A stretch of DNA of 64,000 bases from Saccharofermentans sp. (GTDB lineage Bacteria; Bacillota; Clostridia; Saccharofermentanales; Saccharofermentanaceae), in assembly GCA_016292215.1 (NCBI GenBank), contig JAEFBB010000001.1, positions 1 through 64,000 of the forward strand, in the 5' to 3' direction. Below the pieces are notes generated by a model. It was not told the DNA's origin. It did no database searches and saw only the letters and a program-made list of their open reading frames with translations. Position 1 is the first letter of the stretch. The number at the start of each line of letters is the position of its first letter. Below, one piece after another: positions 22,577 through 29,490 of the stretch. A program made the position numbers and the translations under genes.

Positions 22577-23527
22577 ATGACAAGGGTATGTACAAAGATA
22601 ATGGCTGCACTGGCTGCACTTCTCGTGGCAGCTTCAGTTTTACTTATGCTGCCCCGCAAGACGGAAGCTTTGCAGGTCTATTACGATAAGATCCACTACT
22701 ACGGCATCGAAGCTAATTTGCTTGATAACGGTGCTGTCGAGTTCATTTATACATTTGATTGGGAAGTTGTTATTGATGTTGTTGACGAGCCATTCAAATG
22801 GGTCAAGATAGGTATTCCTAATTCTAATGCGCATAAGTTCAAAGCGCTGACGGATAATATCAAGTCAGTTAAATATATGAGTGACTACGGCAGCTATGCA
22901 AAGGTCAAGTTCCGTAAGACATACCATGCGGGTGATGTCATTCACTTCAGTTTCTCTTTTGTTCAGGAGAATCTTTTTGAGACGCCGGACCTCTACGGCA
23001 ACGGTGGCGTATGGTCGGGCCTTTATGTCTATGACTATACTCCGGGGTGGTTTGATGAGATTCCGGTCGAGAAATATGAGATCAAGTGGAACGTCGCTAA
23101 TGTCGTCAAGTACACCAACAACGCTCGCGTTGAGGGCCAGTATCTGGTTTGTACCGGATCTTTGAAAGCCGGCGAAAGAGCCAACATAGTGATCGGGTAC
23201 AGGCCCGGGTCTTACAGTTTTCAATATAAGGATGTATCTCATTTTTGGACCGAGCTGGGAGCTTTTACTGAAGCTGCCGGACCTATAATATTGGTGGCAG
23301 TTGTTCTTTTTGTTCTTACCCGTGTTTCTGACAAATATAGAGGACATACCGGCGGATATCACGGCCATTACGGCGGTCACGGCGGAGGCTGTGCCTGTGC
23401 TTGCGCCTGTGCGTGTGCCTGTGCCGGCGGCGGCCGTGCGGGCTGCACGAAAAAGGATTTCTACGGGACAAAGGTCTCTACCATGAGGATCAGAAAGATC
23501 CTGAAGGACGGTGCCGAAGATGTTTAA
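22577..23527 (+). CDS. DUF2207-like membrane protein with (Cys-Ala)6 cytoplasmic tail, candidate radical SAM substrate
   Basis: The 316-residue protein has a signal peptide (1-31), an extracytoplasmic beta-rich domain like DUF2207 (32-230), a single membrane helix (about 236-254) and a short cytoplasmic tail. The tail is Gly/His-rich, then carries six consecutive Cys-Ala pairs (residues 272-283), GGGRAGC and a basic end. The repeat uses mixed Cys and Ala codons, so selection acts on the protein. The next gene, overlapping its end, is a radical SAM enzyme, which makes the tail a probable site of thioether or other modification. The predicted topology puts the cysteines in the cytosol with the enzyme. 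The family assignment of the ectodomain is moderate. Confidence 0.8.
   Translation: MTRVCTKIMAALAALLVAASVLLMLPRKTEALQVYYDKIHYYGIEANLLDNGAVEFIYTFDWEVVIDVVDEPFKWVKIGIPNSNAHKFKALTDNIKSVKYMSDYGSYAKVKFRKTYHAGDVIHFSFSFVQENLFETPDLYGNGGVWSGLYVYDYTPGWFDEIPVEKYEIKWNVANVVKYTNNARVEGQYLVCTGSLKAGERANIVIGYRPGSYSFQYKDVSHFWTELGAFTEAAGPIILVAVVLFVLTRVSDKYRGHTGGYHGHYGGHGGGCACACACACACAGGGRAGCTKKDFYGTKVSTMRIRKILKDGAEDV
23390..23425 (+). repeat. Six tandem Cys-Ala codon pairs
   Basis: 36 bases encode CA six times. Ala codons vary (GCC, GCT, GCC, GCG, GCC, GCC) and one Cys codon is TGC, so this is a protein-level repeat rather than fresh slippage. Confidence 0.9.
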
Positions 23528-24875
23528 ACAAAAGCTGTATGAATTAGCCAACTGGAAACAGGTGATCCATACGACCTGGAATCCCGATGGTCCGGGCGTC
23601 ATCAGGATGCACATGATCCCACCCAAGTTCACGCCCTTCAAGTTAGCAAAGACCATTGTCATCATCAACGGCCATGAGATCCTGCCGATCAACGAATCCG
23701 GCGCGATCCTTCTGACCGAATACGTCAAGCACGTAAACGAATTCGGCGAAGGCGCCATGACCGATGAGGACTTGGAAAAGATCATCCGGAAGACTTTCCA
23801 CGGAGTTAAGAAAGTGTTCCCGTTAGTAAAAGATCAGGTGCTCAAAGATGACCTCAACTATTACATCGATCTTTTCGAAGCAATCGCGAAAGGCGAAGCT
23901 GTAGAGACTGACTATCCCGGCATGACGATCGGCGAATACGCCCGCTTCATGAGCGCGCCTCACAGGATGGATCTTCTCGTCTCATCAATGTCCAAGGACG
24001 GCCGTTGGAACTGCAATCAAAAGTGCGTCCACTGTTACGCTGCCGACCAAAAGTGCGCCGAAGAGAAAGAGCTTACGACCGATGAATGGAAGAAGATAAT
24101 CGGGATCCTGCGCAAGGAGAAGGTCTCTCAGATCACCTTCACTGGCGGCGAACCCACCATCCGCGAAGATATCCCCGAGCTCATCAAGGAAGGCCGCTGG
24201 TTTATCACGCGCCTTAACACTAACGGTGTAAGACTTACGGAAGATTACTGCCGCCGCCTCCGCGAAGCCGAGCTCGATAATCTGCAGGTCACTTTCTATT
24301 CCTGCGATGAGGAGATCCACAACAGGCTCGTAGGTGCGCCCAACTATCAGAAGACGCTTGCCGGTATCAAGAACGCAATCGCCGCAGGCATCAACATGAG
24401 CATAAACACGCCTATCTGCAGACTCAATAAAGATTACAAGAAGACATTGGAATTTCTGCACGATCTGGGCATCATATATGTGACATGTTCAGGTCTGATC
24501 CTTACAGGCAACGCGAAAGGCGAAGAGTCAGAAGAGCTTAGGATCGAAGGCGAAGAGCTTTATGAATCTCTGCGGGAAGCCGTCGAGTATGCATATTCGC
24601 ACGACATGGAGATAAGCTTCACGTCGCCCGGTCTGATCAGTCAGGAAAAGCTCACTGAGATGGGGCTTGATGTGCCTTCGTGCGGCGCGTGCCTGAGCAA
24701 CATGGCGATCACTCCGTCCGGCAATGTAGTACCGTGCCAGAGCTGGCTCTCAGACGAGCCCCTCGGTAATATCCTCACCGATAAATGGAAGAAGATCTGG
24801 GAAGGTCCGCGCTGCAAGAGTATCAGGGATATTGCTGCGAAAGAAGAGCAAAAATGCCAGCTGCGCGATAAGTGA
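23520..24875 (+). CDS. Radical SAM peptide-modifying enzyme with N-terminal RRE-like and C-terminal SPASM/twitch-like regions
   Basis: I start this 451-residue protein at the ATG at 23520; a GTG three codons earlier is possible. Residues 1-130 look like a PqqD/RRE-type winged fold that binds a peptide. The radical SAM core begins at CNQKCVHC (CX3CX2C, about residues 164-171), with TFTGGEPTIRED as the GGEP motif. The end has further cysteines (CGACLSNMAITPSG, VPCQSWL, EQKC), a SPASM or shorter twitch auxiliary-cluster region. The gene overlaps the Cys-Ala protein by 8 bases. This is the pattern of RiPP or protein-maturation radical SAM enzymes that crosslink cysteine sulfur to a carbon. The product is unproven. 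Confidence 0.88.
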   Translation: MFKQKLYELANWKQVIHTTWNPDGPGVIRMHMIPPKFTPFKLAKTIVIINGHEILPINESGAILLTEYVKHVNEFGEGAMTDEDLEKIIRKTFHGVKKVFPLVKDQVLKDDLNYYIDLFEAIAKGEAVETDYPGMTIGEYARFMSAPHRMDLLVSSMSKDGRWNCNQKCVHCYAADQKCAEEKELTTDEWKKIIGILRKEKVSQITFTGGEPTIREDIPELIKEGRWFITRLNTNGVRLTEDYCRRLREAELDNLQVTFYSCDEEIHNRLVGAPNYQKTLAGIKNAIAAGINMSINTPICRLNKDYKKTLEFLHDLGIIYVTCSGLILTGNAKGEESEELRIEGEELYESLREAVEYAYSHDMEISFTSPGLISQEKLTEMGLDVPSCGACLSNMAITPSGNVVPCQSWLSDEPLGNILTDKWKKIWEGPRCKSIRDIAAKEEQKCQLRDK

Positions 24876-24935: not shown

Positions 24936-25081
24936 TATGCGTTCAAAACATTTTTGAATTAAGAGAACCCTTTGCGTATCTTTGTCGTCCTATACTGGTT
25001 CTGACCTGAAAGCGCTGCGATTTGGCCCAAGAAAAAATTTTTCAAAAAATTTCGCAAAACCTATTGCATTTTCTGAAATTG

Positions 25082-25090
25082 TGATATACT
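25082..25090 (+). promoter_or_regulatory. Extended -10 promoter of the decayed FecR copy
   Basis: TGA-TATACT with TTGCAT 15 bases upstream, 41 bases before the ATG at 25132. The promoter survives although the gene is deleted internally. Confidence 0.5.
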
Positions 25091-25131
25091 TATCAGGTTT
25101 GTCAAAGCACAAACCAGAAGGGTTATATCCT

Positions 25132-25830
25132 ATGGCTTTGATTAACGTTTTCAAGATTATTCCCGAGAAAACTAAGATAATTATGGCCGTTGCCGCAGTA
25201 GCTGTTATTGCTTTTGCCGCGGCAGGTTTTGTATTGAGCCGTAGTGGTTATAAAGCTGCGACGATGAGACTGATCCGCGTCGAAATATCAGCAACAAACC
25301 CCAAGACAATTCAGACAAAAACCGCCCAAGTGAAAGGTGGAAAGCAGATAAAAGTTTACCTCTATTCCGGCAGGAAGGAAGATACTGTCGCATTCGAGCT
25401 TAGCGTGGTCTCTGAAGACGGCCTCCCCAAATTCCCTCTTCAGAGGCTCGCTGAGGGCGAAGCTCTTCCCGACAGAGTATGCGGATTTACCTGTTGGGAT
25501 AAGGAAGAACTGCTGAACACTAAAAGTGGCATTCTCAATATTGTTAAAAAAGGGGACTCAGTAACTCCTTGGGCCGCTCCCTCTGAGGAGCGCACACTTA
25601 CACCTGAACCCGTCTACGGAACGCTTGCCGGCCCCTCTGCACCGACTTTTATTCCGCCGGTTTCCATAACGCCGGCGGTCATGCCTGCAGGCGTTCCGAC
25701 GGGTTCTATTTTCGCTGGTCCTGGCAGCTGCTATACAGCCACGGCCTTGAATTTGAACTCAATGCTGTGTCCGAGACATACCTCCCTGACTTACCACTCC
25801 GTATGCCCGCAGAGAATTAAGAACTCCTAG
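25132..25830 (+). pseudogene. Internally deleted FecR-domain protein
   Basis: This frame (232 codons from the ATG at 25132, GAAGGG upstream) matches the intact protein at 25999. The N-terminal membrane segment ending GYKAATMRLIRVE is joined directly to ISATNPKTIQTKTAQVKGGK, which aligns with the region after the FecR domain of the neighbour. About 120 residues are missing, in frame; the junction is at a Val-Glu pair present at both ends of the deletion. The similarity ends near CWDKEELLN. The rest is Pro/Thr/Ser rich and then meaningless, without the surface modules of the neighbours. The product, if made, lacks the FecR domain. Confidence 0.8.
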
Positions 25831-25874: not shown

Positions 25875-25942
25875 CGAAAGCAAGACGTAGAAGACGACTA
25901 AAAACAGACAGCAGTTTTTGAGCAAATTGCTCTGAAACTGTA

Positions 25943-25951
25943 TGCTACAAT
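25943..25951 (+). promoter_or_regulatory. Extended -10 promoter of the first intact FecR gene
   Basis: TGC-TACAAT 48 bases before the ATG at 25999. Confidence 0.5.
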
Positions 25952-25998
25952 CGCAGAAGATGAGGACGACACAAAGAGCACTTGGGAGGGATGATCTT

Positions 25999-27849
25999 AT
26001 GTCAGTGATCGATAAGATTAAGAGTTTACCAAAAGCTAAAAAGATAGCTTTCGCAGGCATCGGCGCGGTCATGATCGTCGGCATCATCGTGGCCGTTATC
26101 CTTTTTTCCAACAATGGCTATACTGCTACGACCATGAGACTCCTCCGTGTTGAGGGAACGGTCAACATCGAAGATTCAAAGGGCGGAACAAAGCCCGCTC
26201 TTGATAAGATCAGATTCCAGTCCGGAGATGCCCTTAGTACAGGTGATGACGGACTTGCATCAGTCGGTCTCGACGATACTAAGATCGTCACCCTCCAGTC
26301 TGACAGCCGGGTTGAATTCCAAAAGCAGAATAAGAAGCTTGAGTTAAAGCTTACAAAGGGTGCGCTGTTCTTTGAAGTAACAGAGCATCTTAAAGATGAC
26401 GAGCTCTACGAGATCCACACCTCAAACATGACCGTTGGTATCAGAGGTACTTCAGGCTATGTTTACTACGATGAATCTGACAAAAGAGAATCCCTTGTTG
26501 TTACTGACGGCGTAGTGGAAGTTTCTGCGACCAACCCTGAAACAGGTGAGACAAAGACCGCAAGAGTAGAAGGCGGAAAGCAGATCAAGGTTTATCTGTA
26601 TTCAGACAGAACAAAAGATACAGTTGAATTTGAGCTTAATGACGTATCGGAAGAAGAACTTCCGGAGTTCGCGCTTCAAAGGCTCGCAGAGAATGACGAA
26701 CTCTTAGACAGAGTTTGCGAGTACACCGGTTGGGACAAAGAAAAACTGTTAGAAGTGCTGGAAGAGGCTATTGCCGTAATCGAGAGCGAAGAAACGGAAG
26801 AGACTGAGGAGACAGAAGAGTCTTCAGGCGAGTCGGAGGATCCTACGCCTACAACTACTCCGTCAGTTACCCCCACTCTAACAGCCACACCGACGACAAC
26901 GCCGCCTGTCACAGCGACACCTACTGTCAAACCGACAGCGGGAACATCAGAAACACCTACAGCTACTGCTTCTGCTACACCGACAGAGGCTGAGACGGAT
27001 ACTCCAACTACTTCGGATACTCCTACTGTTACATCGTTACCTCCGGATGATGGCCCGAGTGTACCGTCCGGATATATAAAGTCATCTTTATGGGGTGTTA
27101 CTTATAGAAGTTCAACGGTATACATTTGTCAGCTTGATAATGCCGGTGCAGCTGAGGACTATGGAAAAGGTATTCCTCAATACAGAGGTTACGACGATGG
27201 CGACTGGTACGATCTTAGAGGTCCTGATTCAAACAATACTTTTACGTTAGAAGTCTTCAACTTTGTTTATTATTCAGACGCTATGGTATTCGGATCGGGA
27301 ATCGCGGCGGTTTCAATAGATCCTGATTCGTATAGTGAAGATGTAAAAGTACCAGGAGCCTGGGGCAAAACTTATAATGGTTATACGGTTTACATAACTC
27401 AATCCGGATCTTCATATCAAGGTTACTATCGTGAGAATTGGTTTGATCTAAAGCGCACCGAGAATAACGGAACAATTACTTTTACCTTAGCCGGTTCCAC
27501 AAAAGTCTATTTTAAGTACTCCGTAAGTATTTCTACGCCCGGTTCCAAGCCTGAGATTACACCTGAGGCCGGATACGACAAGTTGATATGGGATGAAAAA
27601 TTTACCGATAATATTTCCGGTGTTACCCGAACAGTCTATATAGAGACTAAGGGCGACGGCAATGATAAAGTTTACAGAGGCTATGTAGACGGAGACGGCT
27701 GGGTCGATCTTGATTACAATGTTACTTATACAAACGGAGACGGTAATTACTATAACTATAATTTTAAGGGAACAAATGACACTTATTATTTTTACAAAAC
27801 CGGAGGAATGATCATATTTGATTCAGACTTCATTGACAATACTACATAG
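25999..27849 (+). CDS. FecR-domain surface protein with Thr/Pro linker and three C-terminal repeat modules
   Basis: I start at the ATG at 25999 with GGGAGG 9 bases upstream (616 residues). A short cytoplasmic N-terminus is followed by one membrane helix (about 14-35) and a FecR domain (about 50-165: IRFQSGDALSTGDDGLASVG, NMTVGIRGTSG). A conserved region to about 265, a Glu-rich and then Thr/Pro-rich linker (265-350) come next. Three related modules of about 60-80 residues fill the C-terminus (about 361-430, 451-510, 527-611), each with a W-TVYI-YxGY-WxDL pattern. FecR domains sense or display signals outside the membrane; in other phyla they pair with CHASE2 cyclases, as here (29498). The modules are not known to me. 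Confidence 0.85.
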   Translation: MSVIDKIKSLPKAKKIAFAGIGAVMIVGIIVAVILFSNNGYTATTMRLLRVEGTVNIEDSKGGTKPALDKIRFQSGDALSTGDDGLASVGLDDTKIVTLQSDSRVEFQKQNKKLELKLTKGALFFEVTEHLKDDELYEIHTSNMTVGIRGTSGYVYYDESDKRESLVVTDGVVEVSATNPETGETKTARVEGGKQIKVYLYSDRTKDTVEFELNDVSEEELPEFALQRLAENDELLDRVCEYTGWDKEKLLEVLEEAIAVIESEETEETEETEESSGESEDPTPTTTPSVTPTLTATPTTTPPVTATPTVKPTAGTSETPTATASATPTEAETDTPTTSDTPTVTSLPPDDGPSVPSGYIKSSLWGVTYRSSTVYICQLDNAGAAEDYGKGIPQYRGYDDGDWYDLRGPDSNNTFTLEVFNFVYYSDAMVFGSGIAAVSIDPDSYSEDVKVPGAWGKTYNGYTVYITQSGSSYQGYYRENWFDLKRTENNGTITFTLAGSTKVYFKYSVSISTPGSKPEITPEAGYDKLIWDEKFTDNISGVTRTVYIETKGDGNDKVYRGYVDGDGWVDLDYNVTYTNGDGNYYNYNFKGTNDTYYFYKTGGMIIFDSDFIDNTT

Positions 27850-28044: not shown

Positions 28045-28086
28045 TATTAAATGATCAATTGACCTTTAGCGGGGGAGGCATTGCTT

Positions 28087-29490
28087 ATGAGCCTGATCGA
28101 TAAAATTAATAGTTTATCCAAGAAAACCAAGATATTTATTGCTGCTGCAGCGCTCGTTGCAGTAGCTGGCATTGTGGCAGTTATTGCTCTTTCCGGGAAC
28201 AAGTATACGGCTACGACTATGAGACTTCTCCGGGTTGAAGGAATGGTCAATATCGAGAATTCCGCAGGTGAGATCAAGCCTGTTATGAAGAACATCAGGT
28301 TCCAATCGGGCGATGCTCTCAGCACCGGTTATGACGGACTGGCGTCTGTAGGACTTGATGAGACCAAAATCGTTACTCTGGAACCGAACAGCAGAGTCGA
28401 GTTTACTAAGAGTGCCAAGCAGCTTCAGCTTAATCTGACTGAGGGCGGTATGTTTTTAGAAGTTACCGAAAAACTTAAGGACGATGAGATTTTTGATATT
28501 ACGACTTCCAACATGACTGTCGGTATAAGAGGAACATCGTGTTATATTTTGGCAAATGAAAAGATGAAAAGCACACTGGTTCAGCTTACGTCCGGACATA
28601 TCACAGTCAGAGTTACGGATCCTCTAACGTCAAATGATAAAGAAGTTTCATTAACTGCCGGTCAACAGGTTTTGATCGTGGCGAAAACGGTTAACGGGGA
28701 AATAAAAAACGAAGTTGTAGTAAGCCGTTTTGGTGCAAAAGATTTACCTGTGTTTGTAGCAAAAGCCATTTTACAGAGTCCCAAGACTCTCAATGACGTT
28801 ATTCTGGGATCCGGAATAACTCAAGATGATCTGGAAGATCGCGCAAACGGTGCCCCGGCAGATTCAAACAACGGTAATGATGATGATGAGCCTTCGCCTT
28901 CAGTGACTACTACGCCTACACCGTCTGCCGCGCCTGAAGATGATGGAAACGGCACCACACCGACTGCTACAGCGACGGCTACGCCTACAATAACTCCGCC
29001 GTTGACAACAACGCCGACGCTTACAACTACGCCGAAGCCAACGGCAACGTCTAAGCCTACGGCAACGTCTAAGCCTACGGCAACTTCTAAGCCGACTGAT
29101 ACTCTTACAACTACACCTACACCTGATGCATCGTCATCGCCGACTAATACTGTATCAACAACGCCGACTGATACTGTCTCAACAACGCCGACAAATGATC
29201 CAATAGCTGAGCCGACGACAACTGAGCCTACCGGATCGGCCACACCGACAGTTCCGGATAACTGTGCTTCGGTATTCTGGGGTGTTGAGGATCCTGATTT
29301 CGGAACCGTTTACATAGTTGTAAACCGTAATGGAGGTTATCTTGGCTGGGTAGATAATAAATGGGTCAGCCTCAGATATGAAGAATCTAACGACGGCGGT
29401 TTGTATCAGTCTTTCTATGCAGGAGATGATCTTTACTACGAAGTTTTTACTGAGTTACAGACTGAAGAACCCTTAGGCAGTCAAGGTTGA
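28087..29490 (+). CDS. FecR-domain surface protein with Thr/Pro linker and one repeat module
   Basis: The 467-residue protein (ATG at 28087, GGGGGAGG upstream, in preference to a TTG two codons earlier) is a paralogue of the 25999 product. The N-terminal membrane helix and FecR domain are nearly identical in pattern (KYTATTMRLLRVEG, IRFQSGDALSTG, SNMTVGIRGTS). The region after FecR differs (LTAGQQVLIVAKTV), and the Thr/Pro linker (about 262-385) contains three copies of an 18-bp repeat encoding SKPTAT. One C-terminal module (392-460) matches the repeat modules of the neighbour. It ends 7 bases before the CHASE2 cyclase, so they are co-expressed. Confidence 0.85.
   Translation: MSLIDKINSLSKKTKIFIAAAALVAVAGIVAVIALSGNKYTATTMRLLRVEGMVNIENSAGEIKPVMKNIRFQSGDALSTGYDGLASVGLDETKIVTLEPNSRVEFTKSAKQLQLNLTEGGMFLEVTEKLKDDEIFDITTSNMTVGIRGTSCYILANEKMKSTLVQLTSGHITVRVTDPLTSNDKEVSLTAGQQVLIVAKTVNGEIKNEVVVSRFGAKDLPVFVAKAILQSPKTLNDVILGSGITQDDLEDRANGAPADSNNGNDDDEPSPSVTTTPTPSAAPEDDGNGTTPTATATATPTITPPLTTTPTLTTTPKPTATSKPTATSKPTATSKPTDTLTTTPTPDASSSPTNTVSTTPTDTVSTTPTNDPIAEPTTTEPTGSATPTVPDNCASVFWGVEDPDFGTVYIVVNRNGGYLGWVDNKWVSLRYEESNDGGLYQSFYAGDDLYYEVFTELQTEEPLGSQG
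29041..29094 (+). repeat. 18-bp tandem repeat in the Thr/Pro linker
   Basis: Three copies of ACGGCAACGTCTAAGCCT, the third with two changes, encoding TATSKP. This part of the surface stalk is prone to length variation. Confidence 0.85.

Follow-up and report, generated by a model that had tools for sequence, protein, structure and literature searches.

In sactipeptides and ranthipeptides, cysteine repeats and RRE-SPASM enzymes together form thioethers. The sporulation killing factor sactisynthase SkfB, which has an RRE-like N-domain, has been described as well (PMC6231123). Thioethers are also known within a protein that is retained: the radical SAM SPASM enzyme QhpD forms them in QhpC, the gamma subunit of an amine dehydrogenase (PMC8172795). 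TvgB acts iteratively on a repeated motif, making cyclopropylglycine from valine, and radical SAM clusters with Asp-Cys repeats are known as well (PMC9062424). Finally, integral membrane proteins of the TIGR04222 type, which have disordered Gly/Ser/Cys tails, have been proposed as MNIO substrates (PMC12452194).

Here we analyse a pair of overlapping genes that recalls each of these systems and departs from each. The pair lies in a 64,000-nucleotide stretch of Saccharofermentans sp. DNA (hereafter the window, meaning the whole stretch). It belongs to contig 5, in a draft genome of 2.33 Mb, and the closest relatives that bear a name are Clostridiales/Saccharofermentans MAGs of rumen and gut origin. 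One gene encodes a radical SAM enzyme and the other a membrane protein ending in a (Cys-Ala)6 tail. SkfB shares with the enzyme an RRE-like N-domain, the radical SAM barrel and C-terminal Twitch-type cysteines. However, the two are only about 20% identical, and the substrate of SkfB is a short peptide that is secreted and bears its leader at the N-terminus. The partner here is a membrane protein whose putative core is C-terminal, and no genes for export accompany it. CteB/SCIFF and other ranthipeptide and sactipeptide maturases likewise combine a Cys-rich substrate with the RRE plus SPASM layout; unlike them, the enzyme here matches no NCBIfam model above cut-off, and a membrane protein with a regular Cys-Ala repeat takes the place of the short peptide as its proposed substrate. 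QhpD differs in that its thioethers go to Asp/Glu side chains; the enzyme subunit that carries them has neither a Cys-Ala repeat nor a membrane anchor. The Asp-Cys clusters resemble our pair in coupling a repeated Cys-containing dipeptide to a radical SAM enzyme, but both they and TvgB/TvgA use peptide precursors and a different motif. The ACGX system (radical SAM family TIGR04340), too, has a radical SAM/SPASM enzyme named for a Cys-containing repeat, a likeness by name alone.

The closest idea in print is the TIGR04222/MNIO proposal, of which the cassette described here is the radical SAM counterpart in a different protein family. There the enzyme class is another one and the tails are predicted to be periplasmic; here the tail is predicted to be cytosolic and the protein has no TIGR04222 match. 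A literature search, with most subscription papers outside its reach, found no paper naming the enzyme–tail pair. Our main reading, to which we assign a probability of roughly 0.6, is that the two genes form a modification cassette in which the enzyme acts iteratively on the membrane-anchored Cys-Ala tail, most likely through thioethers of its cysteines.

Two overlapping genes

The pair is laid out as follows.

22577..23527, plus strand: tailed membrane protein, the proposed substrate (316 aa, stop included in the span; ORF with homologues adjacent to radical SAM genes)
23520..24875, plus strand: radical SAM/SPASM-Twitch enzyme (451 aa; 8-base overlap with the tail gene)

The ORF caller placed the start of the enzyme at a GTG (23511), whereas the alignment with homologues begins at the ATG at 23520; the bases common to both genes are thus 23520-23527. 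Farther 3′, an ORF at 24982-25827 looks like a copy, shortened and decayed, of the FecR-domain membrane proteins at 25942-27849 and 28081-29490, with which it shares ATTMRL..RVE and KGGKQIKVYLYS-like segments.

The tail protein appears to consist of an exported domain, a single membrane anchor and a linker leading to the tail.

22577..22672, plus strand: signal peptide or N-terminal hydrophobic segment (residues 1-32; hydropathy 2.52 at residue 8; A-x-A-like site; kept in homologues)
22673..23242, plus strand: predicted extracellular beta-sandwich ectodomain (residues 33-222; model pLDDT mostly >90)
23243..23341, plus strand: transmembrane helix (residues 223-255, a 33-residue helix in the model; hydropathy over 229-247)
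23342..23389, plus strand: His/Gly-rich linker (residues 256-271; from sequence; disordered in the model)
23390..23425, plus strand: (Cys-Ala)6 repeat, the proposed modified core (residues 272-283; sequence and tandem repeat detection)
23426..23446, plus strand: GGGRAGC block holding the seventh tail Cys (residues 284-290)
23447..23524, plus strand: KDFY and basic amphipathic helix, the proposed follower or recognition segment (KDFY at residues 293-296; model helix 301-315)

In the AF2 model (m8a8f07b5c8ca; mean pLDDT 80), residues 256-300 are disordered and a C-terminal helix spans 301-315. The nearest solved fold to the ectodomain is Ost1/ribophorin I (Z 14.5, 178 aligned residues, ~10% identity), and M1 aminopeptidase N-domains also resemble it (Z about 11.8, ~10% identity). 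This resemblance of the model is one of fold and implies no function. DUF2207 (PF09972) gave no match in the window protein, nor did TIGR04222 among NCBIfam matches up to E = 1. One homologue, L035, reaches 17.5 bits against DUF2207, below the gathering cut-off of 24.4; a remote relation of the tail protein to this family is possible. Across homologues the partner is about 310-440 aa long.

Charge counts on the two sides of the helix differ little (46 before and 52 after), so the predicted topology rests on the signal peptide, the single transmembrane helix and a zinc ribbon found between helix and tail in Lachnospiraceae and Coriobacteriia homologues, a segment that would be expected if the tail side of the helix were cytosolic. 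All three agree in placing the tail in the cytoplasm, as far as the model and predictions go.

These results bear out, for the membrane protein, what the preliminary description had read from the DNA. The 8-base overlap is there, hydropathy and the AF2 model agree on a signal peptide and one membrane helix, and the six Cys-Ala pairs, the GGGRAGC block and the basic end are all present in the ORF at 22577-23527. Its placement of the cysteines in the same compartment as the enzyme agrees with the predicted cytosolic tail.

A Cys-Ala repeat conserved as protein

The window protein ends in the order (CA)6-GGGRAGC-TK-KDFY-basic helix. A repeat this regular might arise by chance or from repetitive DNA. 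Both origins are ruled out: no run longer than (CA)2 came up in 20,000 shuffles of the window protein, and identical tail residues are encoded by different synonymous codons among homologues. Within the repeat itself the codons are mixed, with TGT and TGC for Cys and GCC, GCT and GCG for Ala. Between homologues, 19-25 of 26 tail residues are identical, and 7-15 of those are written with a different codon. The mixed codons and synonymous changes indicate that the tail is selected as protein and not as a DNA repeat, as had been proposed at the outset. The tail is also far better kept than the ectodomain, where identity is 24-52% for every homologue compared except the nearest; relative to these homologues, 8-15 of the unchanged tail residues have a different codon.

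For a wider view we gathered 47 distinct tails with the pattern [GSV][GS]GR[AV]GC, so that the presence of the block is built into this set. Ala follows 293 of the 301 core cysteines and Gly six, while Ala, Ser, Gly or His takes the preceding position. The number of core cysteines per tail varies from 3 to 9, truncated copies being among the low counts. In homologue alignment A2, GRAGC and KD are invariant, and the F and Y of KDFY nearly so. From these Cys and Ala counts, the spread of Cys number and the conservation of the block, it follows that the unit of the tail is Cys-Ala, loose in number, and that the GR[AV]GC block is fixed. Such a combination is the trace one might expect of an iterative enzyme that docks at one constant site, and the KDFY/basic helix end may serve in recognition.

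Variation on this theme is seen at several loci. One tail contains CACACAYACACA. In the remote members G734, G806 and G814, the tail is (CA)n-[GV]GGRVGC-like and ends in SERGYQVLHWL in place of KDFY. In-frame TGA codons were flagged in G018 and G002; the one in G018 proved to be the normal stop near the end of the gene. Contigs of metagenome assemblies frequently end within the Cys-Ala or Gly-rich tail (L045/L100, L055, L096/L136, L098/L135), and MAG annotation of tail proteins will therefore often be truncated.

A radical SAM/SPASM-Twitch enzyme with an RRE-like domain

Three regions of the enzyme are relevant here.

23562..23888, plus strand: RRE-like N-terminal domain (residues 15-123; AF2 model and structural alignments)
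24012..24035, plus strand: CX3CX2C radical SAM cluster motif (C165, C169, C172; invariant in 29 aligned homologues)
24681..24857, plus strand: SPASM/Twitch auxiliary-cluster cysteines (C388, C391, C406, C432, C446; PF13186)

The enzyme scores 84.5 bits against PF04055 (radical SAM; cut-off 29.5) and, over residues 388-446, 37.3 bits against PF13186 (cut-off 21.5). Its C-terminal cysteines follow the pattern C391-x9-G-x4-C406; among the 29 homologues, C388 and C406 are invariant, and C391, C432 and C446 are at least 90% conserved. By these sequence features, the CX3CX2C motif with its domain and the C-terminal cysteines, the enzyme belongs to the radical SAM/SPASM-Twitch superfamily. An RRE is defined as a winged helix of strands followed by three helices (PMC12710340), and the same order is predicted for the enzyme's N-terminus. 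In an AF2 model built from 29 sequences (md70c6022f5ba; pLDDT 86.8), strands 16-20, 28-33, 45-49 and 53-57 precede helices 59-75, 82-97 and 105-123. The model and the homologue alignment thus recover two features that the preliminary description attributed to the enzyme, an RRE-like N-terminus and additional cysteines.

The best structural match of the model is SkfB (PDB 6efn; Z 25.6, 343 aligned residues, 4.7 A, model residues 28..444), followed by SuiB (Z 24.6, 355 aligned, 3.7 A, model residues 17..451) and CteB (Z 22.7, 268 aligned, 2.7 A). All three are RiPP maturases, and for SkfB and SuiB the alignment extends over the N-terminal domain; anSME and EpeE structures match the model as well. 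At the level of sequence, the closest NCBIfam models are NirJ2, AhbD and MoaA rather than SkfB or StsB. The SkfB equivalog TIGR04403 gives 59 bits against a cut-off of 300, and homologue L040 reaches 58.5 bits against TIGR04340 of the ACGX system, whose cut-off is 400. Since every NCBIfam score is far below cut-off, no known equivalog fits, and with NirJ2, AhbD and MoaA nearest, the chemistry is not readable from the family. A domain search found no cobalamin-binding domain in the enzyme.

A near-obligate pair in two phyla

We scanned 85,000 species genomes and obtained 37 homologues of the enzyme. They are 48-95% identical and come from Clostridia, Lachnospiraceae, Oscillospiraceae and Coriobacteriia/Eggerthellaceae. 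A tailed partner adjoins the enzyme at all of these loci except one, L059, and at 32 of the 37 the neighbouring tail is complete or nearly complete. Four loci that might pass for unpaired exceptions are contig-edge truncations: only the tail end is present at L028, L045 and L055 stop within the repeat, and L042 stops within the ectodomain. The remainder of the L045 tail lies on a second contig of the same genome (L100). The true exception, L059:4956-6254, is an orphan enzyme truncated at its C-terminus before C432/C446, and a search of its 1.8-Mb genome, run without a positive control, detected no partner. At G814 (L099, G814:C1:2350000-2366000), a complete single-contig genome, transposase-like ORFs split the partner gene between signal peptide and (CA)n tail, so that this copy is probably broken.

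In a set of 99 relatives, enzyme matches at E < 1e-60 and tailed proteins fall in the same 10 genomes, the window's included; all 10 belong to one genus, most genomes of which have neither gene. In two of the 10 (G001 and G017), two tandem tail genes accompany a single enzyme. Tyr replaces a repeat Cys in one tandem copy of G001 (L020/L021), and one copy in G017 (L019/L022) has four CA pairs only. In a class-level sample of 391 genomes, the enzyme profile was found in 10 genomes. The partner profile was found in these 10 and also in G855, where the C-terminus of the enzyme is visible at a contig edge upstream of the tail gene and the rest is cut off. Enzyme, partner and genuine (CA)n tails therefore mark the same 11 genomes from 7 families, with a hypergeometric P of about 5e-19 for enzyme–partner co-occurrence if relatedness is ignored. 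The (CA)4 DNA pattern matched 14 of the 391 genomes, namely these 11 and three noise matches: no tail protein lies behind the matches in G569 and G594, and the one in G531 gave no repeat ORF. The window itself was the sole match to the tail motif among 398 genomes of the phylum, which indicates that the cassette is rare. A plasmid search returned just general radical SAM proteins at <60% identity.

The gene order offers a further view of the pair. In the window's clade the tail gene precedes the enzyme gene, and at every other paired locus it follows. Among the paired loci this swap amounts to one change on the enzyme tree, a quick tree with several weak forks, and adjacency was kept through it. 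The enzymes of G734, G806 and G814 sit on a long branch. Clustering of all neighbouring ORFs found no third gene family common to the loci, and therefore no common transporter, protease or regulator. The pairing extends into Actinomycetota. The Eggerthellaceae/Coriobacteriia loci L038, L048, L052, L053, L055 and L056 form one group inside the Lachnospiraceae-type part of the enzyme tree, and this nesting suggests transfer between phyla. Judged by the genomes compared, the pairing is real and old. The view that the pair is not conserved, on which the preliminary description would have fallen, is rejected by the counts of loci, relatives and class genomes alike.

What the enzyme may do to the tail

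Because an enzyme resembling known crosslinkers almost always adjoins a membrane protein with a Cys-Ala tail, modification of the anchored tail suggests itself. We regard it as a strong inference, and it is very probable that the tail is what the enzyme modifies. The membrane protein would be inserted via Sec, leaving its tail in the cytosol. There, the RRE-like domain would bind the tail, most likely using the KDFY/helix end as a follower, and the radical SAM centre would pass from one Cys-Ala pair to the next, most likely forming thioethers between each Cys sulfur and a carbon atom in a residue close by. As no export or cleavage genes lie alongside, the crosslinked tail would stay on the membrane protein. 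Thioether chemistry is the best guess and, on balance, the probable one, because RRE-SPASM enzymes acting on Cys repeats form thioethers in sactipeptides, ranthipeptides and QhpC, and because TvgB iterates on a repeat. The varying Cys number together with the near-constant following Ala fits an iterative enzyme. The same Ala is compatible with a link from sulfur to its alpha carbon, though it is no proof. If every Cys were so joined, the result would be a membrane-anchored ladder of very small thioether rings, structural or redox-active and not secreted; we consider this specific product improbable. The interpretation put forward initially, crosslinks on an anchored protein, is thus partly supported, by a conserved near-obligate pair, the domain make-up of the enzyme and a predicted cytosolic tail, and the particular linkage it named is carried forward at this low estimate.

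Several observations count against thioethers. Besides Ala, Gly, Ser and His the tail has no plentiful acceptor, and rings between neighbouring residues would be unusually small. The tail may instead undergo another reaction, such as conversion of Cys to formylglycine, epimerisation, or C-C/C-H chemistry on Ala or Gly. The SPASM/Twitch fold serves many reactions, the anSME and EpeE matches illustrate this for our model, the nearest sequence models are not sactisynthases, and Ala, nearly as conserved as Cys, could itself be the target. Against this stand the repetition of Cys, a hallmark of thioether-forming substrates, the identity of the full-length RRE-bearing structural neighbours (SkfB, SuiB and CteB) and the lack of a detectable cobalamin-binding domain. 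We therefore hold such other chemistry to be a good deal less probable than thioethers, though the most serious competitor.

A more radical departure is that the tail is not modified at all, since a (CxC)n run as it stands is a possible ligand for metal or an Fe-S cluster. The tail would then resemble metallothionein, and the enzyme would use it as a membrane anchor, an electron source or a cluster donor while acting elsewhere. The overlapping CxC motifs, the His-rich linker just upstream and the cytoplasmic zinc ribbon of homologues all speak for such a role. However, the enzyme carries an RRE-like domain of the peptide-binding kind, and the loci share no other gene that could supply its substrate; the strict following Ala and the fixed GGGRAGC-KDFY context exceed the needs of metal binding; and one tail has Tyr for Cys with the alternation kept. 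An unmodified metal tail is thus quite unlikely. As for a pairing by chance or as mere operon neighbours, the data are mostly from MAGs and close relatives inflate the counts, but the pair is kept over the 7 families and Actinomycetota, in swapped order and among unrelated surrounding genes. The co-occurrence tests effectively refute this explanation, leaving it a negligible probability. Modification of the tail, with thioethers as the favoured product, remains the reading we prefer.

Significance

Where does the cassette belong among known systems? A sactipeptide is made from a short leader-core precursor that is cleaved and exported; the partner here has a signal peptide and a transmembrane helix, and no protease or transporter is conserved at the loci. 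Most likely, the cassette is a RiPP-type radical SAM system acting on a membrane protein, and we do not file it among sactipeptide systems. With a simple substrate and only two genes, its chemistry is directly testable, and the near-perfect co-occurrence together with the (CA)n-[GS]GR[AV]GC motif provides a handle for genome mining. If our reading is true, rumen and gut anaerobes of two phyla would carry out RiPP-style radical chemistry on a resident membrane protein, and the scope of radical SAM maturases would widen from peptide natural products to lasting proteins of the cell envelope.
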